Origin: an uncultured Alphaproteobacteria bacterium
GTDB lineage: Bacteria > Pseudomonadota > Alphaproteobacteria > Rhizobiales > Hyphomicrobiaceae
Length of the DNA stretch: 11,081 nt
Assembly: GCA_937950105.1 (NCBI GenBank)
Contig: CALFEM010000535.1
Coordinates: 1 to 11,081, forward strand
Direction of reading: 5' to 3'
The first letter of the stretch is position 1. Each line of letters opens with the position of its first letter. The notes under the pieces are model-generated. The model was not told the origin of the DNA. It saw only the letters and a program-made list of their open reading frames with translations, and did not search any database. A program made the translations under genes and the position numbers. Below, piece by piece: positions 1,310-11,081 of this stretch.

Positions 1310-1593
1310 GCGGCCGGTTGACGGCGCTCAGACGGTGGCGGAGTGACGCGGGGCGGCCGAACAGCCTCAGGCGGTTGGAGTTTCCGCCGTATTGGCAGAA
1401 GCTTAACCAAGATGGGTTCACACGAGTGACGAAGTTTTGATTGTCTTGGACAAGAACTGCTGACGTATTTCCGTTCTGGCGGGTGACACGGGCGAGACTG
1501 CGCCCTCTTGCCCGGTTCCAGAGGAAACATCCCCCTCGCGCCGGACGTGCCGTGATGGTCCGCCAGCCCCGTCCGCGCCCCGGAGACTTTGCG
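1310..1593. promoter_or_regulatory. Intergenic region with a relatively AT-rich patch, possible promoter
   Basis: No gene is recognisable in these 284 bp. The stretch 1380-1475 is clearly richer in A and T than its surroundings and is the likeliest place for a promoter serving the two downstream oxygenase genes. It includes the short palindrome TTGTC-TTG-GACAA (1441-1453) and the imperfect element AACC-N6-GGTT near 1405, either of which could be an operator. The frame of the next gene is open back to a TTG at 1441, but that extension lacks a ribosome binding site and reads as low-complexity basic sequence, so it was left out of the gene. Confidence 0.35.
1582..1585 (+). promoter_or_regulatory. 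Ribosome binding site deciding the start at 1594
   Basis: GGAG with an 8-nt spacer to the ATG at 1594. The alternatives in the same frame (TTG 1441, ATG 1555) have no comparable site, and the protein from 1594 begins just before its first membrane segment, as is usual for the family. Confidence 0.6.
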
Positions 1594-2571
1594 ATGCCCG
1601 CTGCCCGCACGATCACGCGCTATCTCTACGCTCCGTTCATGCTGATCGGGCTCAACGGTCTCGGCTACTATTTCGTGGTCAACGGCTGGTCGTATGTCTG
1701 GATGGCGCTACCGCTCGCCATTGCCGTTGCGGTCGCATTCCTGGCCGAGCGCGCCTCACCCAATTACGAACAGTGGAACGACAGTCACGGCGACGGCGCC
1801 GCCAACTGGATCCACGCCGTCGTCTACGAGATCTCCAACGTCAACGCGACGCTGCTCATTCCGGTGATCGCCTGGCTGTTCCCGTTCGAGGGGCTGTGGC
1901 CGCGCGATCTGCCGATCATCGTGCAACTGCTGATCGCCGTCGTGTTCGCCGATCTCGGCTTCACGCTGGTCCATTACTTCAGCCACCGCTGGCCGCTGCT
2001 GTGGCGCCTCCACGCCGTGCATCACGGCGTGCCGCGTCTCTACGGCCTGAACGGCCTCGTCCGCCACCCGCTCCACCAGACGCTCGACCTGCTGTTCGCC
2101 ACGGGGCCGCTCGCGCTCCTCGGCATGCCGATCGATGTCGCCGTGCTGCTCGGCCTCGTCGTGTCGATCCAGCTGATCGTCCAGCACTCCAACGTCGACT
2201 ACCAGCTCGGGCCGTTCCGCAACCACATGGCGATCGGACAGTTGCATCACCTCCACCACGTCAACTGGGGCAAGGAGGGCGACTGCAACTTCGGCCTGTT
2301 CCTGACGCTGTGGGACCGCATGCTCGGCACTTTCCAGCCGGAGCCGTCGCGCCGCATCCAGGCGCACGACATGGGCGTCGACGAGGTGCCGGACTTCCCC
2401 AAGACCTACTGGCAGCAGCTGCTGTTCCCGTTCGTCTACCAGCCGGGCGCGGGCAAGCAGACGGGCCTGCGCCCGCAACCATCCGCGCAAGCAGCGCTCG
2501 ACAAGACGCGGGCGCTGCCGTCAGACTCGGCGGCGAAGCGCGGCAGGGAGCGGCCGACGCCCGCTGAATAA
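1594..2571 (+). CDS. Sterol desaturase / fatty acid hydroxylase superfamily membrane protein
   Basis: The 325-aa product is an integral membrane diiron oxygenase of the PF04116 type. Hydrophobic segments lie at about 11-28, 33-50, 82-96, 106-126 and 165-195. The histidine ligand set is complete: HYFSH (127-131), HAVHH (140-144), RHPLH (157-161), QHSN (H198) and QLHHLHH (216-222). The C-terminal 45 residues are hydrophilic and low in complexity. Family members use O2 and electrons to hydroxylate or desaturate membrane lipids, sterols, carotenoids or ornithine-lipid head groups (OlsE belongs to this superfamily). The substrate cannot be read from the sequence. It is followed after 69 bp by another diiron membrane oxygenase on the same strand, suggesting a joint lipid modification step. 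The start at 1594 is preferred over 1555 because of its ribosome binding site. Confidence 0.9.
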   Translation: MPAARTITRYLYAPFMLIGLNGLGYYFVVNGWSYVWMALPLAIAVAVAFLAERASPNYEQWNDSHGDGAANWIHAVVYEISNVNATLLIPVIAWLFPFEGLWPRDLPIIVQLLIAVVFADLGFTLVHYFSHRWPLLWRLHAVHHGVPRLYGLNGLVRHPLHQTLDLLFATGPLALLGMPIDVAVLLGLVVSIQLIVQHSNVDYQLGPFRNHMAIGQLHHLHHVNWGKEGDCNFGLFLTLWDRMLGTFQPEPSRRIQAHDMGVDEVPDFPKTYWQQLLFPFVYQPGAGKQTGLRPQPSAQAALDKTRALPSDSAAKRGRERPTPAE

Positions 2572-4095: not shown

Positions 4096-4224
4096 TCAGC
4101 GGGCCGGCTTGTCGCGCGCGGCCTGTTCCCATGTGCCGTAGATGGTGACGGTGTGATCGCGCGCCAGCGCCACGAAGGCGGCGAGCGCCGGGACGGCGCA
4201 GGCGGCGATGACGATGCTGGTCAT
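4096..4224 (-). CDS. Small 42-aa exported or anchored peptide (copy 2 of a paralogous pair)
   Basis: The ATG at 4224-4222 follows AGGA (4237-4234, 9-nt spacer), and the frame closes with TGA at 4098-4096. Residues 1-21 are an uninterrupted hydrophobic stretch (starting MTSIVIAACA) ending in ALA, like a signal peptide or single membrane anchor, though without the usual N-terminal Lys/Arg. The rest is RDHTVTIYGTWEQ followed by a basic tail. It aligns without gaps over all 42 residues with the peptide encoded at 4452-4580, sharing the T27-I28-x-G30-x-W32 core and K39, and is thus a diverged duplicate. Identical length, conserved core and a ribosome binding site in front of both support a real gene despite its size. 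Function is unknown. It is the last minus-strand gene before the convergent desaturase gene, 60 bp away. Confidence 0.65.
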   Translation of the reverse strand: MTSIVIAACAVPALAAFVALARDHTVTIYGTWEQAARDKPAR

Positions 4225-4451
4225 GATGTCTCGTCCTGCGATGCCCTACATGTCTCCCTGACCCGCCCCCCCCTTTGCACCGTCACCCCGGCCTTTGGCC
4301 CCGGGCCCAAATTCGTTGACATCCAGGGTGCCGACTCTCGATGTCACGACGTGTCTGGGTCCCGGCCTTCGCCGGGATGACGGCAGAGTGTGACGCCGCC
4401 GCAGCCATCCGCAGCACTTGGACCGCGGAACGATGACGGCGTGCGGACAGA
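4225..4451. other. Spacer between the two small-peptide genes
   Basis: These 227 bp hold the palindromic element annotated at 4281-4382 and a run of eight C residues at 4266-4273. No third copy of the small peptide and no other gene could be found on either strand. Confidence 0.5.
4281..4382. repeat. Nested palindromic intergenic repeat, REP/MITE-like
   Basis: The outer arms 4281-4309 and 4356-4382 are imperfect inverted copies of each other. Both read CGTCA[CT]CCCGGC at the outer edge and end in CCCA at the inner edge. Each arm can also fold on itself; the right arm gives TCCCGGC-CTTC-GCCGGGA, a stable hairpin. Inside lies another exact inverted repeat, TGACATC (4317-4323) and GATGTCA (4340-4346). 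GTCATCCCGGC-GAAGG-CCGGGAC motifs are familiar as dispersed extragenic palindromes in many alphaproteobacterial genomes. In the minus-strand direction it lies 69 bp after one small-peptide gene and 56 bp before the other, so it could act as a terminator or mRNA-stabilising stem. Confidence 0.75.
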
Positions 4452-4580
4452 TCACTTGCCCTTCTTCTCGGCCCAGATCTTGTCCCAGACGCCATGGATG
4501 GTGATGTCGTCGGCGTGGGCCGTGGCGGTGAGGGCCGAGAGCGACAGCGCGGCGGCGAGGGCGACGATGAGCGACTTCAT
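4452..4580 (-). CDS. Small 42-aa secreted peptide (copy 1 of a paralogous pair)
   Basis: The ATG at 4580-4578 is preceded by AGGAGA (4593-4588, 7-nt spacer), which fixes the start; the frame is open further upstream to 4718 but that part reads as non-coding. The protein opens MKSLIVALAAALSLSALTAT and continues to AHA, a textbook Sec signal peptide with cleavage after A23. The predicted mature peptide is only 19 residues, beginning DDITIHGVWDKIW and ending in a basic Lys/Gly tail, with two Trp. It aligns end to end with the 42-aa product at 4096-4224. I do not recognise the family. A small periplasmic peptide, a membrane-active peptide or a partner of an envelope protein are all possible. Confidence that it is a real gene comes from the signal peptide, the ribosome binding site and the paralogue. 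Confidence 0.78.
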   Translation of the reverse strand: MKSLIVALAAALSLSALTATAHADDITIHGVWDKIWAEKKGK

Positions 4581-4587
4581 GGGTGCT

Positions 4588-4593
4588 TCTCCT
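4588..4593 (-). promoter_or_regulatory. Ribosome binding site deciding the small-peptide start
   Basis: AGGAGA on the minus strand, 7 nt before the ATG at 4580. It selects the 42-codon gene with a clean signal peptide over an 88-codon frame starting at 4718. Confidence 0.7.
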
Positions 4594-4749
4594 GTGCGAG
4601 GTTTCAAGTTCTCCCCATGCGGTGCGCCAGCCCATCGGGTCTCGGCTCGTGCATGGTTGAACTGAGAACCCGCGGCAGGGCGCGAACAGATGCAGCCCCG
4701 CGACGCCGCTCCGATCACAAAGAATCGAACGGCGGGTGGTGATCCAGTT

Positions 4750-5673
4750 TCACGGCAAAGCGATCGTCGCCGTCACCGGGCGGTGATCCGACCCAATATG
4801 CGGCCCGATTTCGAACGCGACCCTGCTTATGTCCGGCGTGGTGACGACGTTGTCGAGCAGCAGCAGGGGCAGCGGTGTGCTCGGCCACGAAGCCGAGATG
4901 CCACCATGCCGCTTCAAACCACGCAAGATGAGGAATCGATGGAACCGCCAGCTCCACGGCGTGGCGTTGAAATCACCGACGAGCGCGATCGGTCCGACCC
5001 GATGATCGAGCAGTTCGCTCGCGTTGAGCGCGGTGAAATGAGCCGCGTGCTGATCGGGCTTCTTAGGGTAGGTCGTGTGAACGCCTACCAGCTTGAGTGG
5101 CCTGCGCTCGGCCAGCGTCAACGTCATCCACGACATTGCAGGATCGTTCGCAGTCCGCGCCTGCCCGCCCGCACTGGTGAACGGATGACGCGAAAGGATG
5201 GCGATGTCGTTGCAGCGGCAGTCGTGAACGTGCGGGTAAAGCCGCTGTAGCGGCGCAACGATCTCGCGGCGCGCGTTGTCGTTGAACTCCTGCAGCACGA
5301 TGACGTCCGCGTCAGAGCGCGCCAGCCAATCGCGAGAGCGCTCGAGTTCGGTGTTCCTGGTCCAGACGTTGAACGAGACGACACGCAGTTGCCCTGCCGC
5401 GTTCGCACGCGCAGGCGCCTTCTGCAACAGTGGCACAGCGGCGAGCCACAAGTTGACTATCAAAGCGAAGCTTGCCGCGCGTGCGATCCAGACCGACGAA
5501 GCGCGGCGTGTCACGACCGCGGCGACGATCGCCGTTGCGATGAGAACCGGACGAAAATCGTTGGCGAGATCGGCAACGACGAAATACGGCGCTGCCAGCC
5601 CGGCTGCCGTCGCCGACACGATACCCGCGAGCAGCAGGCGCGCAATAAGATCGGCCGCGCGCCGCACGCGCAT
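4750..5673 (-). CDS. Membrane-anchored endonuclease/exonuclease/phosphatase family protein
   Basis: The 307-aa product has three predicted N-terminal membrane segments (about 9-31, 42-56 and 66-82), followed by a complete EEP (DNase I/exonuclease III/inositol phosphatase fold) domain at 96-306. Catalytic landmarks are VVSFNVW (N102), VLQEF (E129), GVHTTYP (H199), VGDFNATPWS (D234, N236), LDNVVTTPD (D274, N275) and SDHRP (D296, H297). All the residues expected for Mg-dependent phosphodiester hydrolysis are present. The arrangement resembles E. coli YafD and related membrane-tethered EEP proteins; whether the substrate is nucleic acid, phospholipid or sphingolipid is not decided by the sequence. 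Its ATG overlaps the parE stop by one base (TGATG at 5675-5671), so translation is probably coupled to parE. Confidence 0.88.
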   Translation of the reverse strand: MRVRRAADLIARLLLAGIVSATAAGLAAPYFVVADLANDFRPVLIATAIVAAVVTRRASSVWIARAASFALIVNLWLAAVPLLQKAPARANAAGQLRVVSFNVWTRNTELERSRDWLARSDADVIVLQEFNDNARREIVAPLQRLYPHVHDCRCNDIAILSRHPFTSAGGQARTANDPAMSWMTLTLAERRPLKLVGVHTTYPKKPDQHAAHFTALNASELLDHRVGPIALVGDFNATPWSWRFHRFLILRGLKRHGGISASWPSTPLPLLLLDNVVTTPDISRVAFEIGPHIGSDHRPVTATIALP

Positions 5674-7706
5674 CAGATGTCGAGGTCCTTGGCGAAGGCG
5701 GCGCGCTCCTGGATGAAGCGGAAGCGGGCTTCGGGCTTGGAACCCATCAGCGCGTTGACGGCGTCGGCGAGTTCGCTGCCCTCGCCCTCGCCGATCTCGA
5801 CCTTGAGGAGCGTGCGCACCTTCGGGTCCATGGTCGTTTCCTTGAGCTGCTGGGCGTTCATTTCGCCGAGGCCCTTGAAGCGGCCGACTTCGATCTTCTG
5901 GTTGGCCTTGAACTCGCGCTTGATCAGCTCGGCGCGGTGCCTGTCGTCACGTGCATAGAGCGACTTGGTGCCCTGCGTCAGCTTGTAGAGCGGCGGCACT
6001 GCCAGATAGAGGTGGCCGTTCTCGATCAGCGGCCGCATCTCCTGATAGAAGAACGTGATGAGCAGCGAGGCGATGTGGGCGCCGTCGACGTCGGCGTCGG
6101 TCATGACGATGACGCGCTCGTAGCGCAGATCCTCGTCGCGGTACTTGCTGCCGGTGCCGACGCCGAGCGCGGTGATGAGATCGGAGAGCAACTGGTTCTG
6201 CGACAGCTTCGCCGAGGATGCGTTGGCGACGTTCAGGATCTTGCCGCGCAACGGCAGGATCGCCTGGGTCTCGCGAAGGCGCGCGCTCTTGGCGCTGCCG
6301 CCGGCCGAGTCACCCTCGACGATGAAGATTTCCGTTCCTGCCGCCTGCTGCACGGTGCAATCCGCGAGCTTGCCGGGCAGGCGCAGGCGCCTCGTCGCCG
6401 ACTGGCGGCCGACTTCCTTTTCCTTGCGGCGGCGCTGGCGTTCCTCGGCCCGCTCGATGGTCCATTCGAGCAGCTTGGTCGCCTGCTGCGGATTGTCGGC
6501 GAGCCAGTGGTCGAACGCATCGCGCAGCGCCGTCTCGACGATGCGCGTCGCCTCCTGCGTGGCGAGCTTGTCCTTGGTCTGGCCCTGGAACTCCGGCTCG
6601 CGAATGAACACCGACAGCATGGCCGCCGAGGTTCCCATCACGTCGTCGGAGGTGATCTGGCCGGCGCGGCGGTTGTTGGTCAGTTCGCCGTACGCGCGGA
6701 GCCCCTTGGTCAGCGCCTGCCGGAGCCCCGCTTCGTGCGTGCCGCCTTCGGGCGTCGGAATCGTGTTGCAGTACGAGCGTGAGAAGCCGTCGTCGTCGGC
6801 GATCCACGCCACCGCCCACTCGACCGAACCGTGGCCCGCCTCGCGCTTGATGTTGCCGGCGAAGATGTCCTTGGCGACGAGCGTGTTGCCCTCGATGGTG
6901 GCGGAGAGGAAATCCTTGAGGCCGCCGGGGAAGTGCAGCCGCGCCTCGGCGGGCGTCGCGGTGTCCTCACCGAGCAGGGCCGGATCGCAGCTCCAGCGGA
7001 TCTCGACGCCACCGAACAGGTACGCCTTCGAGCGCGCCATGGTGTAGAGCCGCGCCGGCTTGAACCTGGCGCCCTTGCCGAAGATCTGCTCGTCCGGCTT
7101 GAAGCGCACGCGCGTGCCGCGTCGGTTCATCACCGAGCCGAGCTTTTCGAGCCTGGTCTGCGCGAGGCCGCGCGAGAACACCATGCGATAGAGCTGCTGG
7201 CCGCGCGCGACCTCGACCTCGCATGTTTCCGACAGCGCGTTGACGACCGAGACGCCGACGCCGTGCAGACCGCCCGACGTGTTGTAGGCCTTGCCGTCGA
7301 ACTTTCCGCCCGAGTGCAGCGTGGTCATGATGACCTCGAGCGCCGACTGGTTCTTGAACTTCGGATGCGGATCGACCGGGATGCCGCGACCGTTGTCGAG
7401 CACGGTGAGGAAGCCGTCGGCGCCGAGATGCACTTCGATGAAGGTGGCGTGGCCGGCGACGGCTTCGTCCATCGAGTTGTCGATGACTTCGGCGAACAGG
7501 TGGTGCAGCGCCTTCTCGTCGGTGCCGCCGATGTACATGCCGGGGCGGCGGCGCACGGGTTCGAGCCCTTCCAGCACCTCGATGTCGGCAGCCGTGTAGT
7601 TGTCGGAGGCGTCGCCCGATTTGCGGGGCGCGGCTTTGCTCGCGGCGGTCTTGTCGCTCATGGTCCCGGCGATGCTGGAAAAGAGGTCGCGTTTCGGCTG
7701 GCCCAT
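5673..7706 (-). CDS. parE: DNA topoisomerase IV subunit B
   Basis: The 677-aa product is the ATPase/TOPRIM subunit of a type IIA topoisomerase, which with ParC decatenates replicated chromosomes. A basic low-complexity lead of about 40 residues precedes the GHKL ATPase domain, with EVIDNSMDEA (Mg/ATP Asn), DNGRGIPVD and GGLHGVGVSVVNALS. A transducer domain follows, then the TOPRIM domain with EIFIVEGDSAGGSA, DADVDGAH and GRFKGLGEMNAQQLKETTMDP. Length near 680 aa, compared with about 800 for most GyrB, the FKGLGEM form of the motif and the ending FIQERAAFAKDLDI favour ParE over GyrB. The start at 7706 is supported by GGAG 9 nt upstream; an internal ATG at 7661 lacks a comparable site. It is followed directly by the overlapping EEP-family gene. 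Confidence 0.95.
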   Translation of the reverse strand: MGQPKRDLFSSIAGTMSDKTAASKAAPRKSGDASDNYTAADIEVLEGLEPVRRRPGMYIGGTDEKALHHLFAEVIDNSMDEAVAGHATFIEVHLGADGFLTVLDNGRGIPVDPHPKFKNQSALEVIMTTLHSGGKFDGKAYNTSGGLHGVGVSVVNALSETCEVEVARGQQLYRMVFSRGLAQTRLEKLGSVMNRRGTRVRFKPDEQIFGKGARFKPARLYTMARSKAYLFGGVEIRWSCDPALLGEDTATPAEARLHFPGGLKDFLSATIEGNTLVAKDIFAGNIKREAGHGSVEWAVAWIADDDGFSRSYCNTIPTPEGGTHEAGLRQALTKGLRAYGELTNNRRAGQITSDDVMGTSAAMLSVFIREPEFQGQTKDKLATQEATRIVETALRDAFDHWLADNPQQATKLLEWTIERAEERQRRRKEKEVGRQSATRRLRLPGKLADCTVQQAAGTEIFIVEGDSAGGSAKSARLRETQAILPLRGKILNVANASSAKLSQNQLLSDLITALGVGTGSKYRDEDLRYERVIVMTDADVDGAHIASLLITFFYQEMRPLIENGHLYLAVPPLYKLTQGTKSLYARDDRHRAELIKREFKANQKIEVGRFKGLGEMNAQQLKETTMDPKVRTLLKVEIGEGEGSELADAVNALMGSKPEARFRFIQERAAFAKDLDI

Positions 7707-7943: not shown

Positions 7944-8333
7944 TCAGCTCTTGAACGCGGCCAGCTTGTCGGCCGACGCGGGCGCCAGCTCGACGCTCTC
8001 GCCGCAGCCGCACGCGCTCTTCTGATTCGGGTTGTTGAAGACGAACCCGGCCGAAAGCTTGTCCGTCCGGTAGTCCATCTCGGTGCCAAGCAGATAGAGC
8101 ACGGCCTGCGGATCGACGATCACGCGGGCGCCGTCCTGCTCCACCACCTCGTCGAACTTGCCGATGCTCTCGGCCCACGACATGGCGTACTCCATGCCGG
8201 CACAGCCGCCCTTCTTGACGGCGATCTTGAGGCCGGCGACGGCCTCGCCCTTCTGCGCCATGATCGCCTTCACGCGCGCGGCGGCGGCCGGCGTCATGGT
8301 CATCACCTTGGGGCGCTCTCGTGTCGTGGTCAT
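7944..8333 (-). CDS. sufA: A-type iron-sulphur cluster carrier (HesB/IscA/SufA family)
   Basis: The 129-aa product is an A-type Fe-S carrier that accepts clusters from the SufBCD scaffold and passes them to apo-proteins. The three ligand cysteines are in place: KGGCAGMEY (C44) and SACGCGES (C108, C110). The start at 8333 gives the usual family length with a short extra N-terminus (MTTTRERPKV); GGAG lies 11 nt upstream, which is a loose spacing, and M11 is an alternative start. The gene is the last of the suf cluster, 82 bp after the DUF59 gene. Position in the suf operon favours the name sufA over iscA. Confidence 0.92.
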   Translation of the reverse strand: MTTTRERPKVMTMTPAAAARVKAIMAQKGEAVAGLKIAVKKGGCAGMEYAMSWAESIGKFDEVVEQDGARVIVDPQAVLYLLGTEMDYRTDKLSAGFVFNNPNQKSACGCGESVELAPASADKLAAFKS

Positions 8334-8415
8334 GGGATCGCTTGCTCCGGGCGGCCGCGACGGCCTTCGACCAATAGAAATGGGATCGTGCGGCGATGTT
8401 TCCAATCCGTGACGA

Positions 8416-8964
8416 TCAGAACATGCCGATCGCGAGCTTCGCCTCGTCCGACATGCGGCTCTGGTCCCATGGCGGATCGAACACGATCTGCACCTTGACG
8501 GCATTGACGCCCGGTACCGCGCCGACCGCGTTCTCGACCCAGATCGGCATCTCGCCGGCCACCGGACATCCGGGCGCCGTCAGCGTCATGTCGATCGCCA
8601 CGTTGCGCTCGTCGTCGACATCGATCGAGTAGATGAGGCCCAGTTCGTAGATGTCGGACGGGATCTCGGGGTCGTAGACCGTCTTCAGCGCCATCACGAT
8701 GCCCTGGCGCAGTTCGTCGAGTTCCTCCGCCGAGAGCGTCGTCCCCGCGACCGGCGTGCCGCCTTCGGTGACAGTCGTTGCCGCGGTCGGCACCGGAGAC
8801 GGATCACTGCACGAGCCTTGCCGCACCTCGTCGTCGGGCGTGCCTGTATGCGCCGCCTTCAGATCAGCCGAGCGATCATCGGCAGCGGACGAGGGTCTCA
8901 GCTCCGACGGCTGCTCGGGAACGGCGACGTCGAGCCGGTCGCGTTCCATCGCTGCACTGGTCAT
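8416..8964 (-). CDS. sufT: SUF-associated DUF59/MIP18 family protein with long N-terminal extension
   Basis: The 182-aa product ends in a complete DUF59 (MIP18) domain at about 78-165, with YDPEIPSDIYELGLIY (97-112), the conserved Cys in TLTAPGCPVA (C133), FDPPWD (162-167) and a C-terminal MSDEAKLAIGMF. SufT proteins assist Fe-S cluster maturation, and the gene regularly lies between sufS and sufA in alphaproteobacteria. The start is fixed by AAGGAGG (8976-8970) only 5 nt before the ATG. This gives an N-terminal tail of about 77 residues that is hydrophilic, rich in Ser, Thr, Ala, Pro and Asp, and probably disordered; SUF-operon relatives I know of have shorter tails. It follows sufS by 24 bp, within one operon. 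Confidence 0.9.
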   Translation of the reverse strand: MTSAAMERDRLDVAVPEQPSELRPSSAADDRSADLKAAHTGTPDDEVRQGSCSDPSPVPTAATTVTEGGTPVAGTTLSAEELDELRQGIVMALKTVYDPEIPSDIYELGLIYSIDVDDERNVAIDMTLTAPGCPVAGEMPIWVENAVGAVPGVNAVKVQIVFDPPWDQSRMSDEAKLAIGMF

Positions 8965-8969
8965 CGTGA

Positions 8970-8976
8970 CCTCCTT
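8970..8976 (-). promoter_or_regulatory. Strong ribosome binding site of the DUF59 gene
   Basis: AAGGAGG on the minus strand with a 5-nt spacer to the ATG at 8964. It fixes the start and so shows that the long low-complexity N-terminus is translated. Confidence 0.75.
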
Positions 8977-8988
8977 CCAGTCTTTCCG

Positions 8989-10260
8989 TCAGGCGAACAG
9001 ATCGTGCGCACGCACCAGGGCGTCGTGCAGGGCGTCGATCTCGGCCTTCGTGTTGTACATGGCGAGTGACGCGCGGCAGGTCGCGGTCACGCCGAGCCGC
9101 TCCATCAGCGGCTGCGCGCAATGATGACCTGCACGCACGGCGACGCCCGAGCGGTCGATCAGCGTCGAGACATCGTGCGGATGCAGGCCATCGATGCTGA
9201 ACGACAGGATGCCGCCCTTGCCGGGTGCGGTGCCGTGAACCTTCAGCCACGGCAGCTCGGCGAGCCGCGCATGCGCGTAGGCACTCACCTCGGCTTCGTG
9301 GCGTGCGATCTTCTCGCGGCCGGTCTGCATCATGTAATCGAGTGCCGCGCCGAGCCCGATCGCCTCGACGATCGCCGGCGTGCCCGCCTCGAACTTGTGC
9401 GGTGTCTTGCCGTAGGTGATGCGGTCGACCGTGACGCTCTCGATCATCTCGCCGCCGCCCTCATAGGGCGGCATGGCGTCGAGGTGCTTGCGCCTGGCAT
9501 AGAGCACGCCGATGCCCGACGGCCCATAGGTCTTGTGGCCGGTGAAGACGTAGAAGTCGCAGCCGAGATCCTGCACGTCGACCGGCATGTGCACGGCGGC
9601 CTGACTGCCGTCGACCAGCACCGGTATGCCCTCGGCGTGGGCAAGGCGGATGATCTCCTTGATCGGCGTGATGGTGCCGAGCACGTTCGACATGTGCGTG
9701 ATGGCGACCATCTTGGTGCGCGGCGTGAGAAGACGCGCGAATTCGTCGAGCAGGAACTCGCCGTTGTCGGCGATCGGTGCCCACTTGAGCACGGCGCCGC
9801 GCCGCTCGCGGTGATAGTGCCACGGCACGATGTTGGAGTGGTGCTCCATGATCGAGAGCACGATCTCGTCGTCCTCGCCGATCACCATGCCGCCGAATGA
9901 ACTGGCGACGAGGTTGATAGCGCCCGTCGCATTGCGGGTGAAGATGATCTCGTCGCTCGAGGGCGCGTTGAGGAAGCGGCGTGCGCTCTCGCGGGCATCC
10001 TCGAACTTCTGCGTTACCGTGTTGGAGAGATAGTGCAGGCCGCGATGCACGTTGGCGTACTCGTGACGCCAGGCATGCTCCATCGCCTCGATGACGGGAA
10101 GCGGCTTCTGCGCCGAGGCGCCATTGTCGAGATAGACGAGCGGCTTGCCGTAGACCTCACGGAACAGGATCGGGAAGTCGGCGCGAATGCGCTCCACGTC
10201 GTAGCCGCTGGCACTGCCATGGCTGGCGGTCAACTCGCGCTTCAGTTGGCTCGTCGGCAT
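8989..10260 (-). CDS. sufS: Cysteine desulfurase SufS
   Basis: The 423-aa product is a class V aminotransferase-fold, PLP-dependent cysteine desulfurase of group II. It mobilises sulphur from L-cysteine as a persulphide for SUF cluster assembly. Landmarks are YLDNGASAQKP (43-53), NVHRGLHYLS (70-79), EHHSNIVPW (139-147), HMSNVLG (189-195), VDGSQAAVH (216-224), the PLP lysine in FTGHKTYGPSG (K243), and the catalytic cysteine in RAGHHCAQP (C381) followed by CRASLAMYNT (395-404). An ATG at 10260 preceded by AGGA (8-nt spacer) is preferred. A longer frame to 10344 would overlap sufD and gives an atypical Ser/Arg-rich N-terminus. With this start the gene lies 31 bp after the sufD stop. Its partner sulphur acceptor (SufE or SufU) is not in the window. 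Confidence 0.96.
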   Translation of the reverse strand: MPTSQLKRELTASHGSASGYDVERIRADFPILFREVYGKPLVYLDNGASAQKPLPVIEAMEHAWRHEYANVHRGLHYLSNTVTQKFEDARESARRFLNAPSSDEIIFTRNATGAINLVASSFGGMVIGEDDEIVLSIMEHHSNIVPWHYHRERRGAVLKWAPIADNGEFLLDEFARLLTPRTKMVAITHMSNVLGTITPIKEIIRLAHAEGIPVLVDGSQAAVHMPVDVQDLGCDFYVFTGHKTYGPSGIGVLYARRKHLDAMPPYEGGGEMIESVTVDRITYGKTPHKFEAGTPAIVEAIGLGAALDYMMQTGREKIARHEAEVSAYAHARLAELPWLKVHGTAPGKGGILSFSIDGLHPHDVSTLIDRSGVAVRAGHHCAQPLMERLGVTATCRASLAMYNTKAEIDALHDALVRAHDLFA

Positions 10261-10291
10261 CTCGACCGTCCTGTCTTTCCTTTGTTCGCTC

Positions 10292-11081
10292 TCAGACGCC
10301 GACGCCGAGCAGCCAGGTGCGCGCCATCTCGTCGAGCGCTTCACGGAGCCCCTCGTGTTCGACCTTGTCGATCGCCTCGCCGATGAACGACTGGATCAGC
10401 AGGGCGCGGGCTTCTTCCTTCGGAATACCGCGCGCGCGCAGATAGAACATCAAATCGTCGTCGAGTGCGGCCGACGTCGAACCATGGCCACAGACGACGT
10501 CGTCGGCGTAGATCTCGAGTTCGGGCTTGGAATCGAACTCGGCGTCCTCCGACAGCATTAGCGCCTGCGCCATCTGCTTGCCGTCGGTCTTCTGCGCGTC
10601 GGGCCGCACGATGACCTTGCCCTGGAAGATGCCGCGTCCGGCGTCGTCGAGCACGCCCTTGAACAGCTCGCGGCTCTCGCCGTGGCCGACCGCGTGATCG
10701 ACGAACAGCGTCGTGTCGATGTGCTCGTTGCGGCGCGCAAGAAACACGCCCGACAGGTCCATCTTCACGCCTTCACCGACGTAGCGCGCGCGGATCTCGT
10801 TGCGGGCGAGTCCGACACCGCAGGTGAACTGGAACCCGCGATAGGTCGAGTCCTTGTGCATATCGACGAGCCAGTTGGCGAGATGTGTCACCTTGCCCGC
10901 GTCTGCCGTCACCTTGAGATGCGCCAGTTCGGCACCCTCGCCGACCACGACTTCGCTCGCGGTGTTCACCTGGCCTTCGGCGGTCGAGCCCGGCACGTGC
11001 ACGAACACTTCGACGATGGTGGCGCGAGCGCCCGCGCCGACGCGGATGACGTTGCGCTGCACCGCGAGGCGCCCTTCGCTG
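10292..11081 (-). CDS. sufD: Fe-S cluster assembly scaffold subunit SufD (5' part outside window)
   Basis: The 262 visible residues are the C-terminal part of SufD, the partner of SufB in the SufBC2D scaffold. The frame stays open to the window edge (SEGRLAVQRNVIRV at the cut), so the N-terminal part, usually some 150-200 residues, lies beyond 11081. The visible part is the right-handed beta-helix core (for example GVKMDLSGVFLARRNEHID) followed by the family's helical C-terminus with ELEIYADDVVCGHGSTSAALDDDLMFYLRARGI. The CGHG motif and FYLRARGI are typical of SufB/SufD. Identification as SufD rather than SufB rests on position directly before sufS and on sequence character. sufC and sufB are expected upstream. 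The GTG at 11062 is an internal Val codon, not a start. Confidence 0.93.
   Translation of the reverse strand, partial: SEGRLAVQRNVIRVGAGARATIVEVFVHVPGSTAEGQVNTASEVVVGEGAELAHLKVTADAGKVTHLANWLVDMHKDSTYRGFQFTCGVGLARNEIRARYVGEGVKMDLSGVFLARRNEHIDTTLFVDHAVGHGESRELFKGVLDDAGRGIFQGKVIVRPDAQKTDGKQMAQALMLSEDAEFDSKPELEIYADDVVCGHGSTSAALDDDLMFYLRARGIPKEEARALLIQSFIGEAIDKVEHEGLREALDEMARTWLLGVGV

Follow-up and report, generated by a model that had tools for sequence, protein, structure and literature searches.

Phr pro-peptides, known from the Rap-Phr systems of Bacillus, are precursors of about 40 residues with a Sec leader and a short C-terminal product of 5-6 residues, and they often occur as paralogues. 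Class IIb bacteriocins consist of two short homologous peptides encoded by adjacent genes, with cationic mature forms. In animals, the Drosophila immune-induced peptides (Pfam family DIM, PF08194) combine a signal peptide with a very short tail. To our knowledge, no peptide communication system is known in Hyphomicrobiaceae.

In this work, we followed up two short ORFs, A and B, located in an 11,081-nucleotide stretch of alphaproteobacterial DNA (the window, meaning the whole stretch analysed), which an initial annotation had described as a tandem pair of exported peptides belonging to no named family. We report that gene A is conserved, encodes a Sec leader of the cleavable type and evolves as a protein under purifying selection. 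It is a member of a large family without a name (here the VHG family), which was found in Hyphomicrobiaceae and whose genes occur singly or in tandem and have no constant enzyme partner. The features of the window are collected in Table 1.

Table 1. Positions of the features discussed, numbered along the window.
Feature	Position	Strand	Description	Basis
Gene A	4452..4580	minus	42-aa exported-type micropeptide, VHG family, W subtype	translation, homologues, dN/dS
Leader of A, codons 1-23	4512..4580	minus	Sec-type, ends A21-H22-A23	sequence
Predicted mature peptide of A, codons 24-42	4455..4511	minus	DDITIHGVWDKIWAEKKGK	
AGGAGA	4588..4593	minus	likely ribosome-binding site of A	sequence
Element upstream of A	4679..4730	minus	CGATT..TTGTGATCG...GTCG...TCTGTTyGCGCC	alignment
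Repeat-like element of the spacer	4357..4381	minus	GTCATCCCGGCGAAGGCCGGGACCC; outside both genes	
Gene B	4096..4224	minus	42-aa paralogue: hydrophobic N-terminus, TVTIYGTW, basic tail	translation, homologues, hhalign
Fatty-acid hydroxylase gene	1441..2571			
Endonuclease/exonuclease/phosphatase gene	4750..5673			
Type II topoisomerase subunit gene	5673..7706		parE-like	
SUF-type iron-sulphur genes	7944..11062	minus	SUFBD_core, Aminotran_5, FeS_assembly_P, Fe-S_biosyn	Pfam

Two paralogous micropeptide genes and their sister locus

The two ORFs, each of 42 codons plus stop, encode MKSLIVALAAALSLSALTATAHADDITIHGVWDKIWAEKKGK (A) and MTSIVIAACAVPALAAFVALARDHTVTIYGTWEQAARDKPAR (B) and lie 227 bp apart (4225-4451), as initially annotated. 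Their gapless alignment contains the residues claimed to be shared, with 13 identities in 42 positions (M1, S3, A7, A10, L14, A16, A19, A21, T27, I28, G30, W32 and K39), and a search of all six reading frames of the window for the motif T-[IV]-[HYF]-G-x-W gave no occurrences other than those in A and B. When B was shuffled within its leader and mature parts, BLOSUM scoring gave p=0.001 for the leader and 0/20,000 for the mature part, and scoring by identities alone gave p=0.04 and p=0.005, respectively. In hhalign comparisons, the A-type and B-type alignments matched with a probability of 94.6% (E=6.6e-8); the value for B-type against the whole VHG family was 77%, B having Y in place of the core H. 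Furthermore, a B-type profile containing the B of genome G001 and excluding its A matched the A-type copies of that genome at E=2.9e-8 and 6.1e-6. These sequence comparisons indicate that A and B are homologous.

The hydrophobic leader attributed to both peptides is present in each, and the features of Sec cleavage were found in A only (K2, A21-x-A23, then D24). Cleavage of A is predicted before D24, and the peptide is very probably exported. The N-terminus of B is hydrophobic, lacks basic residues and presents no clear cleavable leader, thus resembling a signal anchor rather than a cleaved Sec precursor; given the absence of positive charge there and the basic tail, B probably stays in the membrane, and the positive-inside rule would even place its tail in the cytoplasm. 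AlphaFold2, run with 30 alignment rows, modelled residues 2-40 of A as a single helix running from the leader into the tail (mean pLDDT 74.6, pTM 0.31), a result uninformative about any ligand. In a profile search of the PDB, E<=1 was reached by nine sequences (best 0.12), all but one of them aligning to leader positions only.

Searches of about 5.8 billion predicted proteins (E<=10, query excluded) returned four homologues of A, with 76-98% identity, and three of B, with 74-86%. A scan of bacterial genomes, one per species, gave 26 candidate stretches and one confirmed locus, L001, in a metagenome-assembled genome of Hyphomicrobiaceae (G001). In this locus, two A-type genes come after parE, then a B-type ORF and a convergent fatty-acid desaturase gene; the window has the same order, except that the endonuclease/exonuclease/phosphatase gene lies between parE and A. 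The parE genes of the two loci are 88% identical, which makes it most likely that the DNA of the window comes from the same bacterial family as L001; the two B sequences are 31% identical. The GTG start of B in L001 overlaps the stop of the second A (GTGA), and a stretch after the first A copy resembles, by eye, a decayed B with an early stop. Among the 103 genomes of the family of G001, clear B-type genes were found in G001 only. The element upstream of A is common to the window, the first A copy of L001 and locus L134, and is a possible promoter or operator region of A. The spacer element between A and B, which we take to resemble the dispersed palindromic repeats of alphaproteobacteria, had no exact match in the 179 loci compared, and no inverted repeat of at least 12 was found.

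For A of the window, dN/dS estimates, which are rough at about 10 to 37 synonymous sites each, were 0.219/1.149 (0.19) against L001A1 and 0.190/0.428 (0.44) against L001A2, the two A copies of L001. Separately, the mature part gave 0.140/1.876 and 0.091/0.532, and the leader 0.328/0.945 and 0.322/0.379. Values for other pairs were 0.065/0.635 (L001A1-L001A2), 0.044/0.405 (L123-L124), 0.370/0.810 (L121-L122) and 0.021/0.118 (L127a-b). In eight gene pairs, including two L128 pairs of another tail type, the dN of the mature part was below that of the leader in four, above it in three (L001A1-L001A2, L123-L124 and L128a-L128b) and tied in one; the tail is thus the most constrained part in the lineage of the window, but not in general. 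The protein-level selection initially claimed for the pair is borne out for A by both ratios, and neither of the refuting conditions set initially was observed for A, whose homologues preserve reading frame, leader and core; for B the argument is one of protein conservation, drawn from its three homologues and the ORF of L001.

The VHG family

A 16-row profile search recovered 258 proteins at E<=10; 120 were listed, all with E<1e-10. The core [VIQ][HNRFY]G was found in all 120 listed members, as VHG in 114, IHG in three, and QFG, VNG and VRG in one each. Precursors measured 37-43 residues in 112 of them and 63 or 64 in the remaining eight, whose start may have been called too far upstream. In an alignment of 52 members, A21, A23 and D24 are each kept in 90% or more. 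With mature parts placed by a simple cleavage rule of the A-x-A type, mature lengths among the 120 ranged from 14 to 21 residues, net charge from -1 to +2, and cysteine occurred in two. The usual tail is Y-G plus up to three residues, and Y-G or Y-S was found within the last five residues of 108 of the 108 members lacking the W tail. The G-x-W tail of the window characterizes the other 12, whose mature parts have 19 residues with K as the last one and a net charge of -1 in four and 0 in eight (B left out). As the remaining 108 also range only from -1 to +2, the membrane-active role suggested for the pair is made less likely.

Gene A displays the leader of the family (A-H-A|D, a Sec-type A-x-A followed by D) and, soon after it, the core in the form ITIHG, but it carries WDKIWAEKKGK instead of a Y-G or Y-S ending, and is therefore assigned to a subtype rather than to the usual VHG form. 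Hence, the T-I-[HY]-G-x-W core that was initially proposed describes A and B and does not extend to the family, where V-H-G is the general motif and W marks a subtype. Similarly, the pair does consist of two related copies, but it is not the whole: A is one of at least 120 VHG proteins, to which B may be added as a diverged member, and other loci also have tandem copies (VHG genes are in tandem in G026 and G001). Broader-profile searches of relatives revealed peptides such as MKSLALAIALSLSALAAGSVAASADTFTVHGVFGGNNYGGR. Organism names among the 120 listed include Hyphomicrobium sp. and Candidatus Filomicrobium marinum, the latter annotated as 'exported protein of unknown function'.

The view that the peptides belong to no named family was upheld, as no Pfam or NCBIfam model fits: scans of A and of family members gave no convincing match, with scores below the curated cut-offs wherever these are given and the remaining members judged by their best E (0.0072 or worse, this being the best Pfam value). 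Literature searches returned titles and abstract openings holding nothing on the VHG family or on peptide communication in Hyphomicrobiaceae, and those on the TetR regulator and desaturase discussed below returned, at the same level, unrelated results only.

Within the 103 genomes of the family of G001, a 52-row profile detected clear copies (E<1e-10) in 11, with 14 copies in all; eight further genomes matched weakly (E from 5e-5 to 1e-3), in several cases because of other exported micropeptides. Among 397 genomes of the order, searched with the 16-row profile, 79 matched at E<=0.005, and E<1e-10 was reached in G001, G043 and G026 only, all three belonging to the 103-genome set; the next best match (1.6e-5) lies within a 395-residue frame. 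G001 was the sole positive among 385 genomes of the class (threshold 1e-6). No clear VHG copy was thus found outside Hyphomicrobiaceae in the order and class samples, where distant members could be missed because at most 19 candidates per genome were scored initially. Two VHG members were searched against 72,556 plasmid records, and neither matched.

Neighbouring genes, a TetR clade and other micropeptide arrays

A comparison of the genes up to 6 kb from the peptides covered 23 loci, 18 picked for their peptides and five for a TetR gene, with gene calls from a codon-position caller adopted after opposite-strand shadow ORFs appeared in GC-rich loci. Beyond synteny blocks of related genomes (L123-L125; L128, L132, L151 and L152, with a Usg gene; the window and L001), lipid genes shared by three loci and generic pairs of low identity (e.g., transporters, 25% between L122 and L127), the only common neighbour was a TetR regulator, present in four of the 18 peptide-picked loci and, by construction, in the other five. 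No receptor, protease or transporter was consistently linked to the peptide genes at the 23 loci, nor was any conserved enzyme, so that the initial suggestion of a partner of an envelope enzyme gains no support.

Individual candidates were also considered. The fatty-acid desaturase adjoins peptide genes in the window, L001 and L148 (G042), and the link was read as synteny, since parE is also near in these three loci. Its orthologues (E<=1e-50) occur in 49 of the 103 genomes; small-ORF candidates were present at five of 30 desaturase loci scanned, with VHG genes at that of G001 only, the candidates at the remaining four resembling, by eye, shadow ORFs of longer genes. G042, whose linked desaturase is outside these 30 loci, has a small exported protein gene beside it. 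The desaturase was rejected as a general partner, with a link in G042 being possible. The endonuclease/exonuclease/phosphatase gene was likewise set aside, being near the peptides in the window only among 28 loci compared. A gene 31% identical to the fatty-acid hydroxylase of the window is near peptides in two closely related loci, L151 and L152. A Usg-like gene is near the peptide arrays of L128 (8844-9128, PF06233 in the Pfam scan), L132 (1606-1881), L151 (11214-11603) and L152 (3530-3844), in what looks like common synteny with changing peptide content.

Orthologues of the TetR regulator (at least 54% identity) were identified in nine of the 103 genomes (loci L126, L127, L128, L131 and L148-L152), with domains PF16859 and PF00440 in the four tested. 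All nine adjoin a gene for a small exported protein, divergently in eight; an automatic scan found six of these adjacencies and the other three were read by eye. The neighbour is of VHG type in G004 and G026, of FDxxxF[FWY]xQQ type in G067 and G023, and of FAE[SD]YF type in G039 and G050. In G042 and G053 it is a repeat protein of 94 residues containing MQD[NH]PG; a related copy beside the TetR gene of G019 (L139) is interrupted by an in-frame stop, an apparent remnant. Of four further TetR genes with 46-49% identity, one (G037) has a small exported neighbour and none a clear operator. An 18-bp operator-like site, AWACGRNNCGTCTCGTWT, was found with at most one mismatch in seven of the nine TetR genomes, G004 and G019 being those where it was not found. 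Its search gave 18 rows, against five for the reversed control, and the site lies at 14 distinct places, the TetR-peptide locus accounting for 12; as the pattern was derived from these loci, its presence there is partly built in, but its scarcity elsewhere is not. The other two places lie inside a 699-residue frame and beside a stretch resembling a TetR C-terminus (31% over 96 residues); this fragment, in L167 (G026:C6), is an apparent remnant. TetR control in the window itself was rejected, as it contains no operator at up to three mismatches and no TetR gene. Unrelated genes of the TetR family adjoin a VHG gene in G084 (L122, 10155-10739) and an array of a third kind (SPWT...) in G032 (L130, 4494-5210).

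The FDxxxF[FWY]xQQ micropeptides resemble the VHG family in leader style, size and tandem layout, and in G067 and G023 they adjoin the TetR gene that is also found at two VHG loci, but their mature sequence is different. Profile matches (E<=5e-4) occur in 27 of the 103 genomes, with up to ten in one (G079) and none in G001. Tandem arrays of this or a similar type are located in L128 (9352-10406), L131 (512-1004), L129 (9833-10402), L212 (1501-2202) and L217 (1501-1787). Inside the array of L128 (G023), a peptide at 10263-10406 has a TVHG core and ends in SIVTVHGIFDAR, linking both kinds. Between the TetR and desaturase genes of L148, an exported protein (9264-9626) contains repeats of a MQDNPGVNGSGVTANPTAKPETG-like unit and has no Pfam match.

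Possible functions and comparison with known systems

Our preferred reading, held tentatively and at not quite an even chance, is that A is a Sec-exported, cleaved peptide ligand of the envelope or the extracellular space, and B its membrane-retained paralogue. A precursor of about 37-43 residues would be translated, exported by Sec and cut by signal peptidase I after A-x-A, releasing to the periplasm or outside a near-uncharged, almost always cysteine-free peptide of 14-21 residues. With its constant V-H-G core, accompanied by Y-G close to the end or, in the subtype of the window, by W-D-[KQ]-x-W, this peptide would serve as a diffusible or envelope-bound ligand, either a signal or a regulator of an envelope protein; that A acts as such a specific ligand, in or outside the envelope, we rate a little below even. 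The tandem paralogue B has kept the core and probably stays in the membrane. Considering the overlap of the B start with the A stop in L001, both were probably one translationally coupled unit in origin, which may later have been split in the window by the repeat-bearing spacer. A ligand is favoured over an enzyme subunit or a membrane-disrupting peptide because the core is strictly kept, the charge is close to neutral, the genes are copied in tandem and no enzyme gene accompanies them consistently. On a broader scale, Hyphomicrobiaceae might possess a peptide system of recombining tandem arrays of Sec-exported micropeptides with interchangeable short tails (VHG, FDxxxF[FWY]xQQ and others), switched in some members of the bacterial family by a dedicated TetR repressor through the 18-bp operator and producing secreted signals or regulators, with A and B as one branch; as a whole, this proposal is doubtful.

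Stress-induced periplasmic peptides with a protective or accessory role, made on a chemical cue and acting on the envelope in bulk rather than as specific ligands, would suit the TetR genes adjoining small exported peptide genes in relatives, the operator-like site at seven of nine loci, and a tandem copy number as for dose-dependent products; however, the core is more conserved than such a role seems to need, the window has neither TetR gene nor operator, and we consider this explanation unlikely. It is distinctly unlikely that the hydrophobic N-terminal part is the product, as a small membrane toxin or a regulator of membrane proteins, with the tail incidental: B does resemble a single-span micro membrane protein and the leader is more conserved than the tail in three of the eight pairs, but the dN of the tail is lower in both comparisons of the window with L001, and across the family leaders vary and V-H-G does not.

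Bacteriocin-like antimicrobials, with the tandem pair acting jointly as a two-peptide bacteriocin, would explain tandem paralogues with differing tails and the two kinds of peptide per locus in the window and L001; nevertheless, this is improbable, considering that the mature peptides are near neutral, that their tails are conserved instead of diversifying, and that no immunity-like or dedicated export gene was found among the window genes scanned against Pfam. Even less probable is a SecM-like function, by which a translation-arrest or leader peptide would sense export and control a gene located downstream, for although a short exported-type ORF with a conserved C-terminal part agrees with it, the copies are in tandem, no downstream gene is conserved, and the desaturase linkage is not general (VHG beside one of 30 desaturase loci, that of G001). 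Finally, non-coding chance ORFs are barely conceivable; short as the two ORFs are, homologues keep the frame, leader and core, and dN/dS is below 1 for A, for which this reading is practically refuted, while the argument for B is one of protein conservation only.

These findings define a family of exported peptides that is restricted to one clade, has a clear motif and offers enough sequences for testing by synthesis. The TetR clade and its operator-like site provide a possible regulator and a handle for studying relatives, and if the VHG peptides are signals, they would represent a peptide communication system in Hyphomicrobiaceae.

Regarding the known systems, VHG precursors share with the Phr pro-peptides their size, Sec leader, short C-terminal product and frequent paralogues, but the mature peptides, at 14-21 residues, are longer; no Rap or TPR match was found among the nine larger window genes scanned, and Pfam PhrC_PhrF matched one of eight VHG members at E=0.31. 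A and B recall the class IIb bacteriocins as two short homologous peptides of adjacent genes, overlapping in L001, but they differ in their Sec leader, in the near-neutral mature peptides (-1 or 0 in all 12 of W type, against the cationic class IIb peptides) and in having no immunity-like gene among the window genes scanned, a weak test since such genes can be short and unmodelled. DIM, which shares the combination of signal peptide and very short tail, scores highest for A among the Pfam models, with E=0.038 and 14.6 bits where the cut-off is 20.8 (E=0.0072 for the best member); for A the match is thus under the cut-off, and it covers residues 1-30, mostly leader. The architecture, a short Sec precursor with a short conserved product and paralogues, is therefore of an already known kind, and the VHG family is new to the model libraries searched (Pfam and NCBIfam); the greatest novelty, although outside the window, lies in the arrays with interchangeable tails beside TetR genes.
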